Of a stretch of 21,201 nucleotides of DNA, positions 2,977-21,163 are shown one piece after another. The notes under the pieces are model-generated. The model worked only from the letters and a program-made list of their open reading frames with translations, was not told the DNA's origin and ran no database searches. Source of the stretch: a virus; the IMG/VR virus record IMGVR_UViG_3300028837_003261, positions 1-21,201 of that record; one strand, given 5' to 3'. The translations under genes and the position numbers were made by a program. Within the stretch, counting starts at the first letter, position 1. Each line of letters begins with the position of its first letter.

Positions 2977-5571
2977 ATGGGTTTGTTCCGCACATTTCGA
3001 GAAATTTTCTCCCGGGCCCTTGACACGGCGGGGGCGGCGACGCCGCCCGGCCCCGATGCTATCGGGGCCCCCGGCGGAGCCGGGTCCGCCGAGTCAAGGG
3101 TCGAGGCGATGGCCACGGCCGCGATGGCCCTCAGTCCGGCGGCGAAGCTCACGCTCAGCCAGTACGCCCAGATGTTCATTCGCGGCGCCGACGTCTCCGG
3201 CGCCGGCGGGTCCGGCCTCGGCGGGCCTGACCGGCCGTATCAGCAGAGCCTGTGGTTCAATCGCTGCGTCTCCGTCAAGGCGGGCAATCTCGCCCGCGTG
3301 CCCCTGCGCGTGAGCGTCGCCGAGGCGGCCGCGACGAGGGCGCTGTGGGGCCTCAAGCACGTCCGGGCGGGCCGGATTAACGCCCGCTCGATCTGCCGCT
3401 ACAAGGGGCTCGACGCGGCGCCGAAGGCCCGCGAGGGCGAGATCCTCGAATCCGGCGAACTCGTCGATTTCGTCGCCCGCCCCAACCCCGAGCAGCGGTG
3501 GAACGATTTTATTCGGGCCACCGCCATTAACCTCGACGTCCACGGCCGCGTCCACTGGCTGTTCGACGAGATGGCGGGCCGGCGGCCCATCACCATGTAC
3601 GTCATCCCCGGCGCCAAAAGCTCGCCGATAGTCAGCAAGGCCGGCCGCGTCGAGCGGCTCGCCGGCTGGAAGTTCCGCGCCCCCCAGGGCGGCGAGTACC
3701 CCGTCGCCCTCGATGAGTGTATCACGTTCCAAATATACGACCCCTACGACCCCCACGGGGCGCTGTCGCCGCGGGTGCCGGGCAACCTGGCCATCATCTC
3801 GGACTACAACGCCTCGATGTACAACGCGGCGATGTTCGCCAACTCCTGCGAGCCCGGCACGGTCCTGTCCACGGACGTCCCCTACAATCCCGAACTCGAC
3901 GCCCAGATGAAAACCACCTGGGCCCAGCGGCATCAGGGCCCGCTCAACGCCCGGCGGCTGGCCATACTCTGGGGCGGCCTCAAGCACGACAGTGTCGCCC
4001 AGACGCTCCAGGAGATGGTGTTCGCCGAGGGCAAGCAACTCTCGCGCGAGGAGATCTGCGCGATCTGCGACGTGCCGGCCTCCGTGGCCGGGTTCCTCGC
4101 CACGCCGGGGCGGAGTGAGGCGTTCGTCCAGGAGGAATTGAAACGGTTTTGGCAGGACACCATCGGCCCCATGCTGGACGGGTTCGCCGACGCGGTCGAT
4201 AACGAGATCTGCCCGCGATTCGACATCCGCCTGGAGGCGTGGTTCGACCTGGAGTCGGTGCCGGTTTTCCAGGACCTGCGGCGGTCGCAGATATCGACTG
4301 TCAAGGATATGTGGGCCATGGGCGTCCCCCTGGCCGACCTGGACGATTGGTGCGATCTGGGGCTGCCGGAGCGGACCTGGCACCAGCGGGGCTTCCTGCC
4401 GATCTCGATCCAGACCGCCGAGGAGGCGGTCGAGGGGCAAGTTCTGCCGCCTCTCGCTGAAGGCGAGGAGGCGGCACACGCGCAGTTAACTGCGCGTGCC
4501 GGCACGCGCGATTCATCGCGCGTGAGCGGCGACCTTGACGAGTCCCTCGTCAAGGCCGCCGCGGAGCGAGTGTGGCGAGCCTGGGAGAAATCCTGGGCCC
4601 CGCTGGCCAAGCGCCAGGCGGCCATGTACGCGGCGCGGGGCGCGGCCCAGTGCCGGCTCGTCCGCAAGCTGCTTGCGGACGAGCCCCATGCGCACTTAAG
4701 TGCGCATGCCGGCACGCGCGATTCATCGCGCGTGGATGTCCGCGGGGCGAAGGCGCCCGCGGACATCGTCGCGAGGATCCTTGTCGAGGTATTCGACGAC
4801 GCGAGCGAGCTCGGCAAATTCAGGGGCCGCCTGGAGAAATTCCAGGGCGAGGCCAGCAAGCTCGGCGTCGAGCAGACCATCCACGAGGCGGCGCTGCCGG
4901 CCGAGGCCGCCCAGACCGCCCGCGTAGTCATGCAGGCCGACCCGGCCATCGCGGCGGCCATACGATCGGACGCGCTGCGGTTCTCGACGGTGGTCGATGG
5001 CGCCACGCGGGGCCAGCTCCGCCGCACCCTCATCGAGGGCATGGACGCCGGCGAGACCGCCCGCGAATTGACCGACCGCGTCCAGGCCGTCTCCGGCCAG
5101 GCCCGGGGCCGGGCCCTGACCACCGCCCGCAACTCTGTGGGCCAGGCCATGAGCCGCGCCCGGCATCGGACCCGCCAGGCGGCGGGCGTGTTCACCCACG
5201 AGATCTGGATCCATTCCCGCGGGCCCGGCGAGCGCCGGCCCGCCCACGTGGCCGCCGAGGCCGAGTACGCCGCCCACCCCAAACCCCTGGGCCAGCGCTG
5301 GGTGATCAACGGCGCCGAACTCGATCACCCCCGCGACCCCGCCGGCCCGCCGGCCGAGATCGTGAACTGTCAGTGCCTGGCCGTCGGCCGCAGGATGCGG
5401 CCGGCGGCCCATGCGTCCCGAGACATCGGGACGCATGCCGGCACGCTCGATTCATCGAGCGTGGTCCTGGAGGACCTCCAGAACATCCTCGCTCGCGGCT
5501 TCGCGGCATACAGCCCAACCGCGGAGGGCGCGGAGAACGCAGAGAACAGAAATGGCCAAGAAACAGATTAA
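2977..5571 (+). CDS. Phage portal protein (HK97 family) fused to Mu F-like minor head domain
   Basis: 864 aa. Residues ~70-490 are an HK97-type portal, with FNRCVSVKAGNLARVPLRV, VARPNPEQRWNDFI, the helix FVQEELKRFWQDTIGPMLD, and SQISTVKDMWAMGVPLADLD near the end. Residues ~635-805 resemble a Mu protein F / SPP1 gp7 head-morphogenesis domain, ending in the family's signature EIVNCQCLA (794-802). The portal is the dodecameric vertex through which DNA enters; Mu F-like proteins are minor head components needed for assembly or ejection. Separate genes encode these in many phages; here they are one chain. The N-terminus (residues 14-42), the linker (about 490-597) and the C-terminus (812-829) carry translated palindromic repeats. 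The stop overlaps the protease start by 20 bases. AGGAC precedes the ATG. Confidence 0.88.
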   Translation: MGLFRTFREIFSRALDTAGAATPPGPDAIGAPGGAGSAESRVEAMATAAMALSPAAKLTLSQYAQMFIRGADVSGAGGSGLGGPDRPYQQSLWFNRCVSVKAGNLARVPLRVSVAEAAATRALWGLKHVRAGRINARSICRYKGLDAAPKAREGEILESGELVDFVARPNPEQRWNDFIRATAINLDVHGRVHWLFDEMAGRRPITMYVIPGAKSSPIVSKAGRVERLAGWKFRAPQGGEYPVALDECITFQIYDPYDPHGALSPRVPGNLAIISDYNASMYNAAMFANSCEPGTVLSTDVPYNPELDAQMKTTWAQRHQGPLNARRLAILWGGLKHDSVAQTLQEMVFAEGKQLSREEICAICDVPASVAGFLATPGRSEAFVQEELKRFWQDTIGPMLDGFADAVDNEICPRFDIRLEAWFDLESVPVFQDLRRSQISTVKDMWAMGVPLADLDDWCDLGLPERTWHQRGFLPISIQTAEEAVEGQVLPPLAEGEEAAHAQLTARAGTRDSSRVSGDLDESLVKAAAERVWRAWEKSWAPLAKRQAAMYAARGAAQCRLVRKLLADEPHAHLSAHAGTRDSSRVDVRGAKAPADIVARILVEVFDDASELGKFRGRLEKFQGEASKLGVEQTIHEAALPAEAAQTARVVMQADPAIAAAIRSDALRFSTVVDGATRGQLRRTLIEGMDAGETARELTDRVQAVSGQARGRALTTARNSVGQAMSRARHRTRQAAGVFTHEIWIHSRGPGERRPAHVAAEAEYAAHPKPLGQRWVINGAELDHPRDPAGPPAEIVNCQCLAVGRRMRPAAHASRDIGTHAGTLDSSSVVLEDLQNILARGFAAYSPTAEGAENAENRNGQETD
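3017..3100 (+). repeat. Family D cloverleaf-like element inside portal (D1)
   Basis: An outer stem of CCCTTGAC + CGGCGG pairs with CCGCCG + GTCAAGGG around an A-A mismatch. It encloses three hairpins: GGGCGGC/GCCGCCC (loop GAC), GGCCCCGAT/ATCGGGGCC (loop GCT) and CCCGGC/GCCGGG (loop GGA). At 84 nt it is 28 codons, read as portal residues 14-42, between the short N-terminal helix and the portal core. The second copy is at 5946-6025. Confidence 0.85.
4445..4476 (+). repeat. Hairpin flanking C1 (left), in portal linker
   Basis: TGCCGCCTC pairs with GAGGCGGCA, and inner TCGC with GCGA, leaving a 5-nt loop and one bulged G. It directly abuts the C1 element at 4477. Confidence 0.6.
4477..4524 (+). 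repeat. Family C double palindrome inside portal (C1)
   Basis: Two 22-nt palindromes separated by CCGG: CACGCGC/GCGCGTG around AGTTAACT, then CACGCGC/GCGCGTG around GATTCATC. At 48 nt it equals 16 codons and is read in frame as HAQLTARAGTRDSSRV. It lies after the portal domain, in the linker to the Mu F-like domain. Confidence 0.88.
4526..4562 (+). repeat. Hairpin flanking C1 (right), in portal linker
   Basis: A stem of GCGGCG, an A-C mismatch and CCTTGACGAG pairs with CTCGTCAAGG and CGCCGC around the loop TCC. It starts one base after C1. With the hairpin at 4445 it makes a hairpin-C-hairpin composite. Confidence 0.65.
4655..4685 (+). repeat. Near-perfect hairpin flanking C2 (left)
   Basis: GGCTCGTCCGCAAGC and GCTTGCGGACGAGCC are exact reverse complements around a single central T, a 15-bp inverted repeat within coding sequence. 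C2 begins one base later. Confidence 0.8.
4687..4734 (+). repeat. Family C double palindrome inside portal (C2)
   Basis: CATGCGC/GCGCATG around ACTTAAGT, then CCGG, then CACGCGC/GCGCGTG around GATTCATC. The 48 nt are read in frame (HAHLSAHAGTRDSSRV). Compared with C1, the first palindrome changes both arms together (CAC/GTG to CAT/ATG) and its centre (AGTTAACT to ACTTAAGT) while keeping perfect pairing. Confidence 0.88.
4735..4767 (+). repeat. Hairpin flanking C2 (right)
   Basis: GATGTCCGCGGG pairs with CCCGCGGACATC (12 bp) around a short GCGAAGGCG loop. It directly follows C2, so 4655-4767 is an unbroken run of four palindromes, all translated within the portal linker. Confidence 0.8.
5385..5403 (+). 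repeat. Hairpin preceding C3
   Basis: CGGCCGC pairs with GCGGCCG around AGGAT. It lies just after the EIVNCQC signature of the Mu F-like domain and six bases before C3. Confidence 0.5.
5410..5463 (+). repeat. Family C double palindrome at the portal C-terminus (C3)
   Basis: A 28-nt palindrome (CATGCGTCCCGA/TCGGGACGCATG, loop GACA), then CCGG, then CACGCTCGA/TCGAGCGTG around TTCA. The 54 nt are read in frame as residues 812-829 (includes HAGTLDSSSV). Arms differ from C1 and C2 but remain complementary. A small hairpin, CTGGAG/CTCCAG, follows at 5467-5481. Confidence 0.85.
5517..5546 (+). repeat. Family E single arm at the portal/protease overlap
   Basis: AACCGCGGAGGGCGCGGAGA plus ACGCAGAGAA is a CAGAG-unit arm like those flanking the gene at 17237. 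It encodes the portal C-terminus (TAEGAENAEN) and also supplies the purine-rich leader for the protease ATG at 5552. Confidence 0.55.
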
Positions 5572-6478
5572 GCAGACGAAATTCATGTTCGCCCAGGTCA
5601 AGGGCTTCGAGGGCGACGAGCTGATCGCCGTGGCCTCGACCGGGGCCCTGGACCGCGACAACGAGATCATCGATCCCGGCGCGTGGGGCGAGAGCCTGGA
5701 CGGCTACCGCGCCAACCCGGTGATACTGGCCACCCACCAGCACCGCCTGGCCAGCGGCAGCAGCCCCGTGATCGGCTCGGCGTCCACGATCGACGCCACC
5801 GAAAAGGGGCTGATCTTCAAGATGAAGTTCGCCGGCACGGCACTGGGCCGCGAGTACGAGCAGCTCTACCGCGAGGGCCACATGCGGGCGTTTTCCGTGG
5901 GCTTCATTCCCATCGACGGCAAGTGGGAGGACCTGAACCGCGGGGCCCTTGACACGGCGGCCGGCGGCAAAGCCGCCGAGGCCGCGAAGCGGCCACCCGC
6001 GGAGCGGGGATCGCCGAGTCAAGGGTTAAAGAGGGTCTGGCACATCACCAAGGCGGAACTCCTGGAGATCTCCGCCGTCCCCGTGCCCGCCAACCCCGAG
6101 GCCCTGGCCGCCATGCGGGCGGCGGGGGCGATGGGCGCGGCCGACGAGGGACTAGCCACCACCATCGCCGCCGAGATCATGCTGGCCATGGCCGAGTTCG
6201 ACCTGGCGGGCAAGTTGGCCGATCGTTTAACCGCGACCGGCACGGGAGCGCTCAGTGATCGCCTGGAGCAAATCGAGAATCGACAAGCACTCATCCTCGA
6301 CCGGCTCAGCGAGCTGGCCGAGGCGATCAGCCTGTCGTCAGACACGCTCGGAGCTTTTGCCAGCCCGCCGCTACGTGCCCCGGCCGGCGGAGACGGCGGC
6401 TCCAAGCACGGCGACAGTGAGGGGCAGGACGCGATAAAGCGAGCGGCCGCGAAACTCAAGGCCGCCACGAAAACATGA
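5552..6478 (+). CDS. Prohead protease (HK97 family, peptidase S78)
   Basis: 308 aa serine protease that matures the prohead by cleaving capsid and scaffold. N-terminal motifs are typical: STGALDRDNEIIDPGAW (29-45), NPVILATHQH (55-64) with the catalytic-type His, MRAFSVGF (111-118) with Ser115, and AELLEISAVPVPANPEAL (168-185) with Glu172. The start at 5552 overlaps the portal by 20 bases. Between Ser115 and Glu172, where family members usually have a short loop, lies the D2 palindromic element (residues 132-158). A family B-like arm is at residues 225-234. The C-terminal ~120 residues are helical with a Gly/Ser/Lys tail and may be a scaffold or oligomerisation part. Confidence 0.9.
   Translation: MAKKQIKQTKFMFAQVKGFEGDELIAVASTGALDRDNEIIDPGAWGESLDGYRANPVILATHQHRLASGSSPVIGSASTIDATEKGLIFKMKFAGTALGREYEQLYREGHMRAFSVGFIPIDGKWEDLNRGALDTAAGGKAAEAAKRPPAERGSPSQGLKRVWHITKAELLEISAVPVPANPEALAAMRAAGAMGAADEGLATTIAAEIMLAMAEFDLAGKLADRLTATGTGALSDRLEQIENRQALILDRLSELAEAISLSSDTLGAFASPPLRAPAGGDGGSKHGDSEGQDAIKRAAAKLKAATKT
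5946..6025 (+). repeat. Family D cloverleaf-like element inside prohead protease (D2)
   Basis: The outer stem matches D1 (CCCTTGAC, A-A mismatch, CGGCG with CGCCG, GTCAAGGG). Inside are three hairpins: CGGCGGC/GCCGCCG (loop AAA), GGCCGC/GCGGCC (loop GAA) and CCCGC/GCGGG (loop GGA). Hairpins 1 and 2 differ in sequence from D1 but keep pairing. D2 is 80 nt and leaves in a different frame from D1, so the encoded peptides differ at the right end. Confidence 0.85.
6225..6252 (+). repeat. Family B-like arm inside protease coding sequence
   Basis: GTTTAACCGCGACC followed by GGCACGGGAGCGCT closely matches the left half of family B (GTTTAACCGCGACC then CGCAGGGGAGCGC). It is translated in frame as part of DRLTATGTGALS. 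It may be a remnant of an insertion; the right half is missing. Confidence 0.5.
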
Positions 6479-6522
6479 CAACGGCCACAGAGACACAGAG
6501 GACACAGAGGCTTCTTTTTTGA
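6475..6522 (+). CDS. Tiny repeat-derived ORF (MTTATETQRTQRLLF)
   Basis: An ATG overlapping the protease stop (ATGA) opens a 15-codon frame that reads the left arm of family A and stops in its loop. I doubt it is a functional gene. It is listed because the same repeat-derived start recurs at 10568 and 19179 and resembles the TerL N-terminus. It may allow terminating ribosomes to re-initiate. Confidence 0.2.
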   Translation: MTTATETQRTQRLLF

Positions 6523-6563
6523 AAAGACAAAGCCGTTCTCTGTGAACTCTGAGCCTCTGTGGC
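6483..6563 (+). repeat. Family A full hairpin between protease and capsid gene (A2)
   Basis: The left arm GCCACAGAGACACAGAG + GACACAGAGG and the right arm CTCTGTGAACTCTG + AGCCTCTGTGGC pair over most of their length, with a conserved internal mismatch (GGA opposite AAC). The loop contains TTTTTTGAAAAG. The right arm ends just before the capsid ribosome binding site. Confidence 0.9.
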
Positions 6564-6582
6564 GGTCCTGGAAGGAATGAAC

Positions 6583-7932
6583 ATGACACCGATAGAGGCA
6601 TTGAAAGCAAACGCCGCGGAGCTCGCCGACGAGTTCGGCAAGGGCGAGGCCCGCGACGACGGCAAGGTCGCGGTGCTGCTGGAAAAGCAGGCCAGGCTCC
6701 TGGCCGATCCCGCCGCCGCCGGCTACGGGGCGACGGACGAACTCAAGACCCAGATCACACAGCTCCGCGCCGACCTGGACGCCGAGGTCAAGGCGCGGCG
6801 GCAGTTCGAGAAGCTGGGCCTGGGCCTGGCCAAGGCCGGCGGCGTGATCGTCCCCGGCCGGTCGGCCCGGCGCGAGATGCTGGCCGACGGGAGGGCCTTC
6901 TACGACGACGACATGGCAGCCGAGTTCGGGGCCCTCATGGCCGTCCACCTGGCCGGCTGCAAGGGCGCCCCGCTCACGCCCGACCAGCTGCCCCGCTACA
7001 CGAAGGACCTGGCCAAGACCGCCCAGCAAAAGGCGACGCCGGACATCGAGGCCGCCACCGGCATCGGCGCCGAACTCGTGGCCAATCTGTACCTTCGCGA
7101 GCTGATCCGCAACGTCGAGACCTACGGCACCGTTTTCCCGGAATGCCGCCGCGTGGCGCTGGCGACGATGGGGACGGTGACGGTCCCCAAACGCACCGCG
7201 GGCATGAACGCCTACTGGACGGCGGCCGGGGCGACCATCAACCAGTCCGGCATCGCCTTCGACACGGTGACCCTCCACGCCGAGAAGCTCGCCGCGCTGA
7301 CGGCCGTGACGCGTGAGATGTTCCTGGACCCGGCCCTGCTGGCGGACCTCGGGCAGCTCATCGGCCTGGAGATCGCCCTGGCGATCGCCTACGCGCTGGA
7401 CAATGCCGTCGTCAACGGCGACGGGACGGCCACCTACGGCGGCATCACCGGACTGCTCAAGTCAGCGACGCTCGGCTCGGCGGCCGCCGCCACGGGCCAC
7501 ACCACCATCGCCCTCATGGACGCCGGCGACGTGAGCAGCTTCAGCCGCAGCCTGACCATCGGCATGTTTTACAATCAGGCGAAATGGTACGGACATCTCA
7601 GTGTCCGCGAGGCGTTCCTGGACCTGCGGACCACCACCGGCGGCTGGGTCTTCCGGGACCGCGCCGACGACGCCGGCCGGCGGATCCTCAAGGGCTACCC
7701 CTGGGTTGTGGGCCAGCTCTTCCCGCCCGAGTCGGCCGTGGCGACGGGCGACAAGTTCGCCTGCTTCGGAGATCTCCGCAGCGCCTACCTTTTCGGCTCC
7801 ATCCGCGGCGTGGAGATCGCATCGAGCGAGCACGTGTGGTTCGACCAGGGCCTCGTGGCCGTCCGCGGCATCATCCACGCCGACGCGGCCGAGGCGGACG
7901 CCAACGCCATCAACACACTGGCGGCGGCATAG
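6583..7932 (+). CDS. Major capsid protein (HK97 fold)
   Basis: 449 aa. ATG 6583 is chosen over GTG 6559 and ATG 6577 because AAGGA is six bases before it. Residues 1-~85 are helical and charged with coiled-coil character, like the delta/scaffold domain that the prohead protease removes. The HK97 core follows: ATGIGAELVANLYLRELIRN, TVTVPKRTAGMNAYW (199-212), AALTAVTREMFLD (237-249), AYALDNAVVNGDGT (269-282), and the C-terminal GDLRSAYLFGSIRGVEIASS with VRGIIHADAAEADANA. It forms the hexamers and pentamers of the head. The neighbouring protease and portal agree. Length is normal for a capsid with a delta domain. Confidence 0.92.
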   Translation: MTPIEALKANAAELADEFGKGEARDDGKVAVLLEKQARLLADPAAAGYGATDELKTQITQLRADLDAEVKARRQFEKLGLGLAKAGGVIVPGRSARREMLADGRAFYDDDMAAEFGALMAVHLAGCKGAPLTPDQLPRYTKDLAKTAQQKATPDIEAATGIGAELVANLYLRELIRNVETYGTVFPECRRVALATMGTVTVPKRTAGMNAYWTAAGATINQSGIAFDTVTLHAEKLAALTAVTREMFLDPALLADLGQLIGLEIALAIAYALDNAVVNGDGTATYGGITGLLKSATLGSAAAATGHTTIALMDAGDVSSFSRSLTIGMFYNQAKWYGHLSVREAFLDLRTTTGGWVFRDRADDAGRRILKGYPWVVGQLFPPESAVATGDKFACFGDLRSAYLFGSIRGVEIASSEHVWFDQGLVAVRGIIHADAAEADANAINTLAAA

Positions 7933-7980: not shown

Positions 7981-8060
7981 GCCACAGAGGCACAGAGGAC
8001 ACAGAGGTTTCTTTTTGAAAAAGACGAGGCTGTTCTCTGTGAACTCTGTGTCTCTGTGGC
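7981..8060 (+). repeat. Family A full hairpin (A3)
   Basis: Arms GCCACAGAGGCACAGAGG and GTGTCTCTGTGGC close a long stem with the TTTCTTTTTGAAAAAGA tip. The element ends 21 nt before the ATG at 8081, just ahead of GAAGGAG. Confidence 0.9.
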
Positions 8061-8080
8061 GAATTTGAAGGAGCGCACAC

Positions 8081-9011
8081 ATGAAGCGACTGACATTGAT
8101 TTTGATTGCGGCCGCCATCCTCGCGGCCGCCTGGACGCCCGGTTTGGCGAAATCGCCCAACGCAAAGGCCGCCTCCGCCGTCACCACGGGCCGATTCGTG
8201 TACCTGACGGCCGCCGGCACGATCGCCCACGCCACGGCGGCGACCAATCCGGTGGTCGGCGTCTGCGCCATGACGCAGGCGACGACAAACGCCCAGACCT
8301 ACTATCACGCCGCCGGCGAGGTCTGCACGGTGACATCCGGCGAGCTCATCGCCGTGGGCAATCTGCTGACCGGCGGGACGCTGGGCAAGGCGTTCGTTTT
8401 GGACGCGGATGATGCGTCCACCCAGTACTGGGGCGGGATTGCGCTGACCGCCGCCAGCGGCGCCGACGAGGACCACCGCCGGCGTCATCCAGGCCAACGG
8501 GGCGATCAGCTCCGACGGAGCGGTGACCGGCGGCAGTCTGACCGACGGGACGGCGACGATCTCCTCCGGCGTGGCCGATACGCTGACGGTCGATGGCGAC
8601 GACAACACCGTCCAGGACCTCGGCGTCACGGTCCCCAAGGCCGTGACGGCCAACGCCGCGATCCCGTTCCTGGTTATCTTCGAGCCCGCGGCGGCCGGCA
8701 CGACCAGCTACACCGTACCGGTGGGCAAGAAGCTTCGCGTCCTGGACGCCTGGGCGTTCAAGCGGGAAGCCGCCGGCGCCCACGCCGACGACGACTGGAA
8801 CCTCCAGAACAACGACGGCACGGCGGCGAACATCTTCGATACCGAGGAGCTGAACACCATCGCCGACAAGGCGAGGATCCTGTTCGACAATCTCGACGAT
8901 ACCGAACAGGACGTCGCCGCCGGCGACACGCTCGACCTGGTCGCCAACGAGGACGCCGCCGGCGGCTGCGACGGCGCGATCTACGTCCTGTGCGTATGGG
9001 TGACGCCGTAA
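8081..9011 (+). CDS. Capsid decoration-like protein (DUF2190-like), with apparent frameshift near 8471
   Basis: A GAAGGAG site precedes ATG 8081. The first frame gives a Sec-like signal (MKRLTLILIAAAILAAAW) and then VTTGRFVYLTAAGTIAHATA, a pattern like DUF2190 capsid-cement proteins (G-x-hydrophobic-VYLTAAG... VVGVC). At about 8461-8472 the reading frame must move by one base: before, it reads ALTAASGADE; after, TTAGVIQANGAISSDG and on to a stop at 9011 with sensible protein (LRVLDAWAFKREAAG, DTLDLVANEDAAG). The unshifted frame becomes Arg-rich and continues only as a by-product to 9061. The cause may be an inserted base, an assembly error or real frameshifting; there is no classical slippery site. 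The N-terminal signal is odd for a capsid protein. The function is a guess from position after the capsid gene. Confidence 0.6.
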
Positions 9012-9016
9012 CAACT

Positions 9017-9045
9017 GCCACAGAGGCACAGAGGTCACAGAGAAA
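9017..9045 (+). repeat. Family A single arm (A4)
   Basis: GCCACAGAGGCACAGAGG and TCACAGAGAAAGG match the A arm, with no partner arm downstream. A family B half-element follows at 9056. Confidence 0.8.
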
Positions 9046-9055
9046 GGCGTTTGAT

Positions 9056-9070: not shown

Positions 9071-9102
9071 GACTAGCCGATCCGAAATCGAAGGCCCAGG
9101 CC

Positions 9103-9424: not shown

Positions 9425-9685
9425 ATGGACATCGACGCAGTGAAGCGAGCCGCGGGCAGCGAAGCCGACGCCGACGGCATGGTGAAGGTGGTCGCCGTGC
9501 TCGACGGCGTAAAAGACAACGGCAAAACCTACGCGAAGCTGGCCCGGTTCCGAATGCACCGGGACCTGGTCCCGGCGCACGTCATGGCGGGACAGGTCGG
9601 CATCGACGGCGATGCCGCTCTGCCCAAGGCCAAACAACAGCCGACGCCCCGCGACAAGCAGCAGCGCGGCGGCGCTGACAAATAG
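9425..9685 (+). CDS. Small unknown head-region protein
   Basis: 86 aa (MDIDAVKRAAGSEADADG, then MVKVVAVLDGVKDNGKTYAKL). The start at 9425 is preferred to ATG 9413 because GGGAG lies five bases before it. The middle has a strand-rich look (KVVAVLDGV...KTYAKLARFRM) and the C-terminus is a Lys/Gln/Pro-rich tail. Genes like this, encoding short proteins between the capsid and connector genes, are common in siphoviruses, but I cannot place it in a family. Confidence 0.65.
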   Translation: MDIDAVKRAAGSEADADGMVKVVAVLDGVKDNGKTYAKLARFRMHRDLVPAHVMAGQVGIDGDAALPKAKQQPTPRDKQQRGGADK

Positions 9686-9686
9686 T

Positions 9687-9764
9687 GTTTAACCGCGATG
9701 CCGCAGGCGAGCGCGTTGGGATTCGCGTGGGCCATCCGCGCTCCCCGATGGGTCGCGGCTAAAC
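9687..9764 (+). repeat. Family B element, degenerate (B4)
   Basis: GTTTAACCGCGATGCCGCAGG opens the element and GGGTCGCGGCTAAAC closes it, with a longer and less perfect interior than in other copies (about 45 nt including CATCCGCGCTCCCC). The right arm is the first unit of the tandem repeat that follows. Confidence 0.75.
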
Positions 9765-9821
9765 GCTATTCGACGCTGGGTCGCGGCTAAACGCTATTCG
9801 ACGCTGGGTCGCGGCTAAACG
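9750..9821 (+). repeat. 28-bp tandem repeat of the family B right arm
   Basis: A unit starting GGGTCGCGGCTAAACG and continuing CTATTCGACGCT is present in two full copies (9750-9777, 9778-9805) and a third partial copy (9806-9821), with no visible differences. It lies directly ahead of the connector gene leader. Confidence 0.88.
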
Positions 9822-9833
9822 TGGAAAACAAAC

Positions 9834-10627: not shown

Positions 10628-10984
10628 ATGAACGATGGGCTGAGAGGCACAATCGACAGGCTGGGCGAGGTCCGCGAGCGGATCGCGGAGTTGGCGGCGA
10701 CGGAGAAAAAGCTGGCCGGCGTGGTCCGCAAGGCGCTCAGCGGCCGCAAGGACCCGGTCGAGCGCGGCGACCACTACATCGCCCAGCTCCTGACCGTCGA
10801 GTCGATCCGCATCACCAGCCTGGCGGCGTTGAAGCGCGCGGCGGGCAAACAGTTCCTCGAGGTCGTCCGCGCCGACGTCGCGGCCGCCCGGAAGGTCCTG
10901 GGCGACGAGGCCGTCGCGGCCCTCGGCAAGCCGACGCGCAGCCGGCGGCTGACGGTGACGCGACTCAAAGACACGCGCGATTAA
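10628..10984 (+). CDS. Unknown helical protein of the head-tail region
   Basis: 118 aa from ATG 10628, which has AGGA six bases before it. An alternative start at 10568 overlaps the connector stop (ATGA) and adds the repeat-derived MTTATETQ leader, giving 138 aa. The protein is Ala/Arg/Glu/Leu-rich and almost wholly helical (TIDRLGEVRERIAELAATEK, then AAARKVLGDEAVAALG). No family is recognised. Its position between connector and tail-completion genes suggests a head-tail joining or stopper role. The stop codon TAA is inside a family C palindrome. Confidence 0.65.
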   Translation: MNDGLRGTIDRLGEVRERIAELAATEKKLAGVVRKALSGRKDPVERGDHYIAQLLTVESIRITSLAALKRAAGKQFLEVVRADVAAARKVLGDEAVAALGKPTRSRRLTVTRLKDTRD

Positions 10985-11019
10985 TCGCGCGTGCCGGCAT
11001 GCGCAGTTAACTGCGCATG
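10972..11019 (+). repeat. Family C double palindrome at a gene junction (C4)
   Basis: CACGCGC/GCGCGTG around GATTAATC, then CCGG, then CATGCGC/GCGCATG around AGTTAACT. The order is reversed relative to C1-C3, so the element is inverted. It contains the stop codon of the upstream gene and an ATG at 11017. Confidence 0.88.
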
Positions 11020-11644: not shown

Positions 11645-11723
11645 GCCACAGAGACACAGAGGACACAGAGAACGGCTTCTGCTTTTTGAAAACAAACCTC
11701 TGTGAGTTCTGTGCCTCTGTGGC
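11645..11723 (+). repeat. Family A full hairpin (A5)
   Basis: GCCACAGAGACACAGAGG and TGTGCCTCTGTGGC close the stem with a GCTTTTTGAAAAC tip. The conserved GGA opposite GTT internal loop is present. It ends about 11 nt before the next start codon at 11735. Confidence 0.9.
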
Positions 11724-11734
11724 GGCATTGAGAA

Positions 11735-12175: not shown

Positions 12176-12223
12176 CACGCGCACTTAAGTGCGCGTGCCG
12201 GCACGCGCGCTTAACCGCGCGTG
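12176..12223 (+). repeat. Family C double palindrome at a gene junction (C5)
   Basis: CACGCGC/GCGCGTG around ACTTAAGT, CCGG, then CACGCGCG/CGCGCGTG around an imperfect centre CTTAAC. It begins at the base after the stop of the upstream gene. Confidence 0.88.
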
Positions 12224-14791: not shown

Positions 14792-14834
14792 GCCACAGAG
14801 ACACAGAGTTCACAGAGAACGGCTTCCTCTTTTT
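14792..14834 (+). repeat. Family A single arm (A6), right-arm type inverted
   Basis: GCCACAGAGACACAGAGTTC and then ACAGAGAACGGCTTCCTCTTTTT carry the TTC spacer that in full elements belongs to the right arm read in reverse. It is therefore one arm of an inverted copy whose other arm, with the leader of the next gene, is missing. Confidence 0.75.
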
Positions 14835-19182: not shown

Positions 19183-19292
19183 CAACGGCCACAGAGACAC
19201 AGAGATCACAGAGAAAGCAAATGCTGTTTCTTCTTAAAAACACGATGCCGTTCTCTGTGGACTCTGAGCCTCTGTGGCATCTGGAGAACTGA
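19179..19292 (+). CDS. Repeat-derived ORF across the family A hairpin
   Basis: An ATG overlapping the previous stop (ATGA) starts a 37-residue frame that reads both arms and loop of the A7 hairpin (MTTATETQRSQRKQMLFLLK and on). It ends two bases before the next gene's ATG. It is probably not a functional protein. It could keep ribosomes moving across the hairpin to the next start. Confidence 0.2.
   Translation: MTTATETQRSQRKQMLFLLKNTMPFSVDSEPLWHLEN
19188..19278 (+). repeat. Family A full hairpin (A7)
   Basis: GCCACAGAGACACAGAG on the left and CTCTGAGCCTCTGTGGC on the right close the stem, with an enlarged loop. A GGAGA ribosome binding site starts just after it. Confidence 0.85.
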
Positions 19293-21055: not shown

Positions 21056-21063
21056 AGAAAGAT

Positions 21064-21143
21064 GCCACAGAGACACAGAGATCACCGGGCCGTTCCTTTT
21101 GAAAAAACAGAGCCGTTCTCTGTGAACTCTGTGCCTCTGTGGC
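21064..21143 (+). repeat. Family A full hairpin (A8)
   Basis: GCCACAGAGACACAGAG and GAACTCTGTGCCTCTGTGGC close the stem with a CTTTTGAAAAAAC tip. It ends 20 bases ahead of the next start, just before AGGAG. Confidence 0.9.
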
Positions 21144-21163
21144 TCTCTTGAGAGGAGACCGAG

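Follow-up and report, generated by a model that had tools for sequence, protein, structure and literature searches.

A family of predicted cloverleaf elements resembling miniature inverted-repeat transposable elements in phage head genes and a planctomycete genome

Short palindromic repeats within protein-coding genes have been described as Rickettsia palindromic elements (RPEs), with relatives in Wolbachia. RPEs are stem-loops of about 100-150 bp known from Rickettsiales, they occur in genes and in gaps, have open frames, and lie in-frame in conserved proteins (PMC10969869, PMC2229807), while their target duplication is marked with a question mark (PMC2229807). In the literature that was found, protein-coding palindromic elements have so far been essentially restricted to Rickettsia and Wolbachia, and their insertion mechanism is open. 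Here, two elements, D1 and D2, were analyzed that lie in the portal gene and the prohead protease gene of a phage, on the 21.2 kb IMG/VR virus record IMGVR_UViG_3300028837_003261 (the whole analyzed stretch is called the window). Very probably, both represent copies of one non-autonomous mobile element similar to miniature inverted-repeat transposable elements (MITEs), which would be moved in trans and translated through. The richest source of further copies was the Planctomycetota groundwater metagenome-assembled genome NC_groundwater_669_Ag_B-0.1um_68_34 (G001), a fragmentary assembly.

Like RPEs, the cloverleaf family is palindromic, open, and found in frame in conserved genes (protease, RsmD-type, kinases). 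In contrast to RPEs, its members have about 80 nucleotides (nt), form a cloverleaf with three hairpins, show 4-bp duplications and nesting, and occur in a planctomycete genome and in phage head genes. With the bacterial MITEs RUP, Correia/NEMIS, ERIC and YPAL the family shares terminal inverted repeats, a target duplication, the lack of a transposase gene and the presence of many copies. However, TA ends and a high A+T content are found in most MITE families that have been listed (PMC2229807), whereas the cloverleaf family is G+C-rich, has the target CNNG, and has a body that covaries almost wholly, with only the 8-bp ends constant. Of the features that characterize MITEs, terminal inverted repeats, a duplication of fixed length, small size, and filled and empty sites were found, and an autonomous partner with the same ends was not found in the fragmentary G001. 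The family is therefore best classed as MITE-type with an RPE-like mode of action, rather than as one of the RPEs. A literature search, with most subscription journals outside its reach, found no description of it. The proposal of the sequence-only reading that the element is previously undescribed thus held, within the reach of that search, for the family and not for its kind: it is apparently a new family of a known kind (MITE or protein-coding palindrome), its mobility is unusually well documented, and it is present in phage head genes. It unites the missing marks of transposition, namely inverted ends, 4-bp duplications, nesting, and filled and empty sites in phage head genes, and with them the way in which selfish palindromes give rise to new stretches of protein can be tested directly. 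In addition, the family provides many natural examples in which structured proteins, capsid-maturation proteases among them, tolerate an insertion, as well as hairpins with sequence turnover under retained pairing.

Structure of D1 and D2 and paired variation in the family

The features of both elements and the two genes that hold them are listed below. R1 is a covariance model that was built from G001 sequences only, with the window excluded.

2977..5571, + strand: gene holding D1, portal protein with Mu F-like C-terminal region (PF04860, 7.5e-35; phrog_2662, 2.5e-58)
3017..3100, + strand: D1, whole cloverleaf element, 84 nt, within the portal gene, about residues 14-41 (fold; R1 match, E=1e-8)
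3017..3024, + strand: D1 left terminal inverted repeat CCCTTGAC (near-invariant end of the family)
A3025-A3092: D1 mismatch
3026..3031, + strand: D1 inner stem, left arm, partner 3086-3091 (fold)
3032..3048, + strand: D1 hairpin 1, 7 bp, loop GAC (fold)
3049..3069, + strand: D1 hairpin 2, 9 bp, loop GCT (fold)
3070..3084, + strand: D1 hairpin 3, 6 bp, loop GGA (fold)
3086..3091, + strand: D1 inner stem, right arm (fold)
3093..3100, + strand: D1 right terminal inverted repeat GTCAAGGG (near-invariant end of the family)
5552..6478, + strand: gene holding D2, prohead serine protease (PF04586; phrog_80, 9.7e-27; homologue alignment)
5946..6025, + strand: D2, whole cloverleaf element, 80 nt, within the prohead protease gene (fold; R1 match, E=8e-9; protease alignment)
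5946..5953, + strand: D2 left terminal inverted repeat CCCTTGAC (near-invariant end of the family)
5962..5978, + strand: D2 hairpin 1, 7 bp, loop AAA (fold)
5980..5994, + strand: D2 hairpin 2, 6 bp, loop GAA (fold)
5996..6008, + strand: D2 hairpin 3, 5 bp, loop GGA (fold)
6018..6025, + strand: D2 right terminal inverted repeat GTCAAGGG (near-invariant end of the family)

The positions given for both elements by the sequence-only reading were right, and folding confirmed the common outer stem, the A-A mismatch and the third loop GGA that it had described. The outer arm CCCTTGAC/GTCAAGGG has 8 bp in both elements, or 9 bp if a G-T wobble is counted, and the common plan is completed by the inner stem CGGCG(G) with its three hairpins, each of which has a loop of 3 nt. 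Hairpins 1 and 2 are indeed unlike in sequence and fully paired in both elements. The predicted RNA folds had -72.4 kcal/mol (D1, z -6.5) and -61.2 kcal/mol (D2, z -6.6), and the DNA folds had z values of -7.4 and -6.3, respectively; no shuffled sequence was as good in any case. Because R1 was built without window sequences, its matches to D1 and D2 are independent evidence for family membership. Scans with Rfam and with ARAGORN for tRNAs gave no match, including none to an intron family.

In the family, the ends CCCTTGAC...GTCAAGGG form near-invariant 8-bp terminal inverted repeats, and the whole interior is variable. The elements range from 31 to 173 nt, mostly 77-86 nt, and contain no transposase gene. 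The inner stems CGGCGC, CGGGGC, CCCGGC, CGCGGC, CGAGCCG and CAGGCC were found in G001, and CGCCGC, CGCGGC and CAGC in the phage copies, always with the matching partner. Three hairpins were present in 43 of the 49 elements tested, and reduced forms without a hairpin (31-32 nt), with one (44 nt) or with two hairpins (62 nt) also occur. The loops had 3 nt in 129 of 140 cases, and 74 of these 129 were GNA or its complement TNC; GNA loops are very stable in DNA hairpins.

Covariation was analyzed with 46 sequences aligned to R1, and the resulting figures have to be read in light of an alignment that was itself fitted to the structure: standard pairs occupied 97.8% of the cells, compared to 75.2% in column shuffles (maximum 77.4), and 286 cells had double changes, compared to 86 in the shuffles (maximum 104). 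The outer-stem columns barely varied. At the level of aligned sequences, the variation of the hairpins is thus shown to be compensated, in agreement with what had been noted for the two window copies. The further claim that the paired differences argue for a selected structure held only in part, i.e., the compensation was found, but it is no proof of selection, because correction by template switching or the swapping of hairpins could yield the same result.

Copies, target duplications and insertions within genes

Copies were searched with a gapped pattern on the stem in viral contigs and in bacterial and archaeal genomes, and a looser viral pattern was used afterwards; genome-wide counts of carriers apply to the matches listed, and further carriers may exist. 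The sequence-only reading had made its case depend on copies elsewhere, and they were found: about 55 distinct elements were retrieved from G001, where the exact-end pattern alone matched at 42 places, and the looser viral scan added eight elements, spread over five more phage contigs that are G+C-rich (L245-L248 and L257). The viral scan also found the same phage in another sample (L007/L011), about 100% identical across the shared parts. When 23 genomes of the class of G001 and 392 genomes of its phylum were scanned, G001 was the sole carrier, and thus the distribution of the family is patchy. Prophage relatives of L257 were sought in the class of G001, and none was found.

Several other matches were rejected. 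Those in G021 and G153 from the class and phylum scans were simple repeats or chance, and those in L249-L256 and L258-L267, obtained with the loosest viral pattern, had no cloverleaf and were chance or other sequences. Among the matches listed, the Alphaproteobacterial ones were a different, simple palindrome, CTTGACCCGGCC...GGCCGGGTCAAG. CTTGAC and GTCAAG are common to both by construction of the search pattern, but the Alphaproteobacterial palindromes have a single perfect stem of at least about 17 bp, no cloverleaf, and the outer bases GCCGGG, and they are probably unrelated. Sites in G001 with CCCTTGACAC and no partner resembled promoters (TTGACA) or contig ends.

One mark of mobility was the target duplication. 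Exact 4-bp direct repeats flanked 21 of the 55 G001 elements, compared to a mean of 2.9 and a maximum of 8 in shuffles, and repeats of 2 bp or 3 bp were not in excess. The commonest target was CNNG, often inside GCNNGC, and the duplications at the phage copies were TCCA, CTGG, CCTG, CCCG and CAGG. Nesting was also observed, i.e., in L144, L154 and L205 a CCCGGC-type element lies inside a hairpin of another element, and the composites in L144 and L205 are themselves bordered by exact duplications. The best evidence for mobility came from filled and empty sites in the same protease gene of the related phages L247 and L257. At one site, exactly 81 nt (77+4, i.e., 27 codons) are present in L247, and L257 has the empty reading GGGAATGGCAAGGAGGCC. 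At the other, the EQVPD of L247 is interrupted in L257 by an element of 80 nt with the duplication CAGG, EQ[ALDS...SQG]QVPD (the gene end aligns less well). In addition, six near-identical 78-nt copies in G001 (L136, L147, L149, L168, L172 and L179) have longer similar flanks and are mostly intergenic, and 78 plus the 4-bp duplication is not a multiple of three. They are read as the result of a recent amplification, which may have involved a larger unit.

The insertion in the window protease was resolved by alignment with homologues lacking it. The gene product is an S78 prohead protease in which D2 separates the Ser region (AFSVGF) from the LLEIS region, as had been described, and homologues have a short turn there. 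Nine prohead proteases from planctomycete prophages align on both flanks, and none has the insert: the window protease reads ...NRG[28 residues]KRVW..., compared to, e.g., ...IDGKRVR.... D2 is a clean insertion of 84 nt (80+4) or 28 codons at about 5945-6028, corresponding to residues 132-159 (ALDTAAGGKAAEAAKRPPAERGSPSQGL). In the phage nucleotide database, the protease had only distant homologues and the portal gene had no match. In G001, in-frame ALDT inserts were found in seven Pfam-supported genes, encoding an RsmD-type methyltransferase, three kinases, a zinc-ribbon protein, a cytidylyltransferase and a PQQ-repeat protein; in L169 the insert falls within the kinase catalytic domain. Open reading frames with ALDT or PLT but without Pfam support were left out of the gene counts.

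Both D1 and D2 read ALDT... at the left, and the right ends differ (AESR and SQG, respectively) because D1 has 84 nt and D2 80 nt. The conclusion drawn from these frames, that selection is not on the peptide, was supported by the genuine insertions. These use at least two frames, namely ALDT (window, G001 genes and L257) and PLT (L247), and given the PLT frame of L247 it is not the peptide that is conserved.

The prohead protease genes of three different phages hold independent insertions (L257 6870-6949, L247 6817-6893, window 5946-6025). This recurrence may be due to chance, sampling bias or a true preference. Elements are also in frame in apparent lipoprotein signal regions of L246 (1830-1909 and 2336-2415, without Pfam support), with the peptides ...AGILL[ALDT...SQG]LAILALFGISGC and ...AAGAL[SLDT...RQG]LVALAALLSGC. 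The GCTGGC-type codons of lipoprotein signal regions match the CNNG target.

Proposed mechanism and rival explanations

The sequences themselves establish the family and its terminal repeats, the covariation, the duplications of 4 bp, the nesting of elements, their in-frame insertion into genes, and the filled and empty sites. The further copies, the 28-residue protease insertion, the duplications, the nesting, and the filled and empty sites agree with the original idea of a structured insertion element tolerated within essential genes. In the proposed mechanism, the 8-bp ends CCCTTGAC/GTCAAGGG would serve as terminal inverted repeats, and a transposase supplied in trans would insert the element and thereby duplicate its target, a staggered site of 4 bp that is commonly CNNG. 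The inverted ends, the fixed 4-bp duplication and the lack of a gene inside the element point to a DDE-type transposase. The body is a predicted cloverleaf with a variable inner stem bearing usually three short triloop hairpins. Two of the three frames tend to be stop-free, and whenever element plus duplication is a multiple of three (80+4, 77+4, 83+4, 86+4), about 27-30 mostly small or polar residues would be added. Judging from the reading frame, the insert would be translated, and it would presumably be tolerated in a loop-like manner, for instance at a surface turn of the protein.

Several observations weigh against this explanation. About 10 of the 55 G001 copies have inverted 4-bp flanks; some of these, e.g., CCGG and CTAG, are also direct repeats, and the rest are inverted only. 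The flanks of D1 (CGGG/TCGA) and D2 (GGGG/TTAA) contain no recognizable 4-bp duplication, and thus both would be old or would differ in their target. D1 begins 13 codons into the portal gene and has 84 nt, and 84+4 is not a multiple of three. Its empty site was sought by alignment of the portal N-terminus, which does not align with homologues, and it is family membership that suggests that D1 is an insertion. Insert length plus 4 was a multiple of three in all seven Pfam-supported G001 genes, but this is only mildly informative and suggestive, because about two thirds of all elements have frame-preserving lengths. The fitting of the covariation alignment to the structure belongs here as well. 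Lastly, no transposase with matching ends was found in the fragmentary G001. Its one PF01609 gene was rejected as partner, because its terminal repeats differ from the family ends. An orphan end pair at the spacing of an autonomous copy was not seen in G001, and neither PF01797 (Y1; control genomes were positive) nor PF13701 was found in this incomplete genome.

The paired changes could result from selection on shape or from mutational renewal. There is nearly an even chance that the elements are mobile but that the paired changes are mutational, i.e., that template switching copies a hairpin arm or that whole hairpins are swapped, so that complementarity renews itself. G-C to C-G flips make up the majority of the double changes, G-U intermediates are few, and identical 5-bp stem cores turn up at different hairpin positions and in different inner-stem subfamilies; the flips and the recurring cores favour renewal or swapping. 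Inverted flanks of 4-7 bp, as in L201, L184, L215 and L175:2061 (e.g., CCCTCG...CGAGGG), carry the palindrome past the element and would fit as well. However, the base composition of about 80% G+C favours flips in any case, and the strict loop size and the GNA/TNC bias, which a purely mutational process need not yield, favour a constraint on shape. A more far-reaching version of such a constraint is conceivable, albeit rather doubtful: the family might be selected for the DNA cloverleaf (cruciform) itself. Only the 8-bp ends would then be fixed in sequence, an undescribed transposition machinery would recognize the inner stem and the three GNA/TNC-type triloop hairpins by their shape, and these hairpins might double as an open, mild 28-residue linker that allows the element to reside in essential phage and host genes.

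Three further explanations fared less well. The strong predicted structure on both strands and the copies in the head-protease genes of three phages could suggest that the structure benefits the gene that contains it as a signal in RNA or DNA (translation pausing, mRNA stability, packaging), with the phage copies kept for this function. This is improbable, as copies in either orientation occur both in intergenic gaps and in genes that have no relation to one another, a close relative lacks the element at the same site, and no Rfam or tRNA match was found. Removal after transcription or skipping by the ribosome, as with an intron-like or bypassing element, could be suggested by the awkward sites of some elements, such as a kinase catalytic domain or lipoprotein signal regions, but it is very improbable: the supported gene insertions are open in frame, and their lengths plus the duplication are divisible by three (77+4 and 167+4 among them), which precise removal would not require, and no intron family matched. 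Hardly any credence is given to a repetitive extragenic palindromic (REP)-like element moved by a Y1 transposase (REP-associated tyrosine transposase, RAYT). The family resembles REPs and bacterial interspersed mosaic elements (BIMEs) in being small, palindromic, multicopy hairpins; it differs in its intragenic location, and no Y1_Tnp gene was found in the carrier, the incomplete G001. The family also has clear 4-bp duplications, which IS200/IS605-type elements are not known to make. The tags GTAG/CGTC that mark REP super-families (PMC3733652) are missing from its conserved ends.

Neighbouring genes and other repeats of the window

The genes with D1 and D2 lie between two further genes:

520-1923: terminase gene
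6580-7932: HK97-type capsid gene

The contig L011 (IMGVR_UViG_3300008516_000240), the same phage from the other sample, is practically identical to the window, but has additional 352, 159 and about 320 nt at the window positions 8473, 9071-9072 and 10592, beside repeats. The assembly of the window may have collapsed at these sites.

Double palindromes of the type CACGCGC..TTAA..GCGCGTG-CCGG-..., with variable yet paired arms, are located at 4477-4524, 4687-4734, 5406-5463, 10972-11019 and 12176-12223. The first three are in frame within the portal gene and encode a repeated peptide (AGTRDSSRV / AGTLDSSSV), and the double palindromes may form a further family of protein-coding palindromes. A scan of the 392 Planctomycetota genomes for the phage host did not find their exact pattern. 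Repeats of the type GCCACAGAG...CTCTGTGGC are present in many intergenic gaps (413-456, 6484-6564, 7981-8061, 9017-9048, 11645-11733, 14792-14834, 19188-19279 and 21060-21144), and a second intergenic repeat family, GTTTAACCGCGACCC...GGGGCGCGGCTAAAC, occurs at 452, 9337, 9664-9829, 12235, 13167 and 15132.

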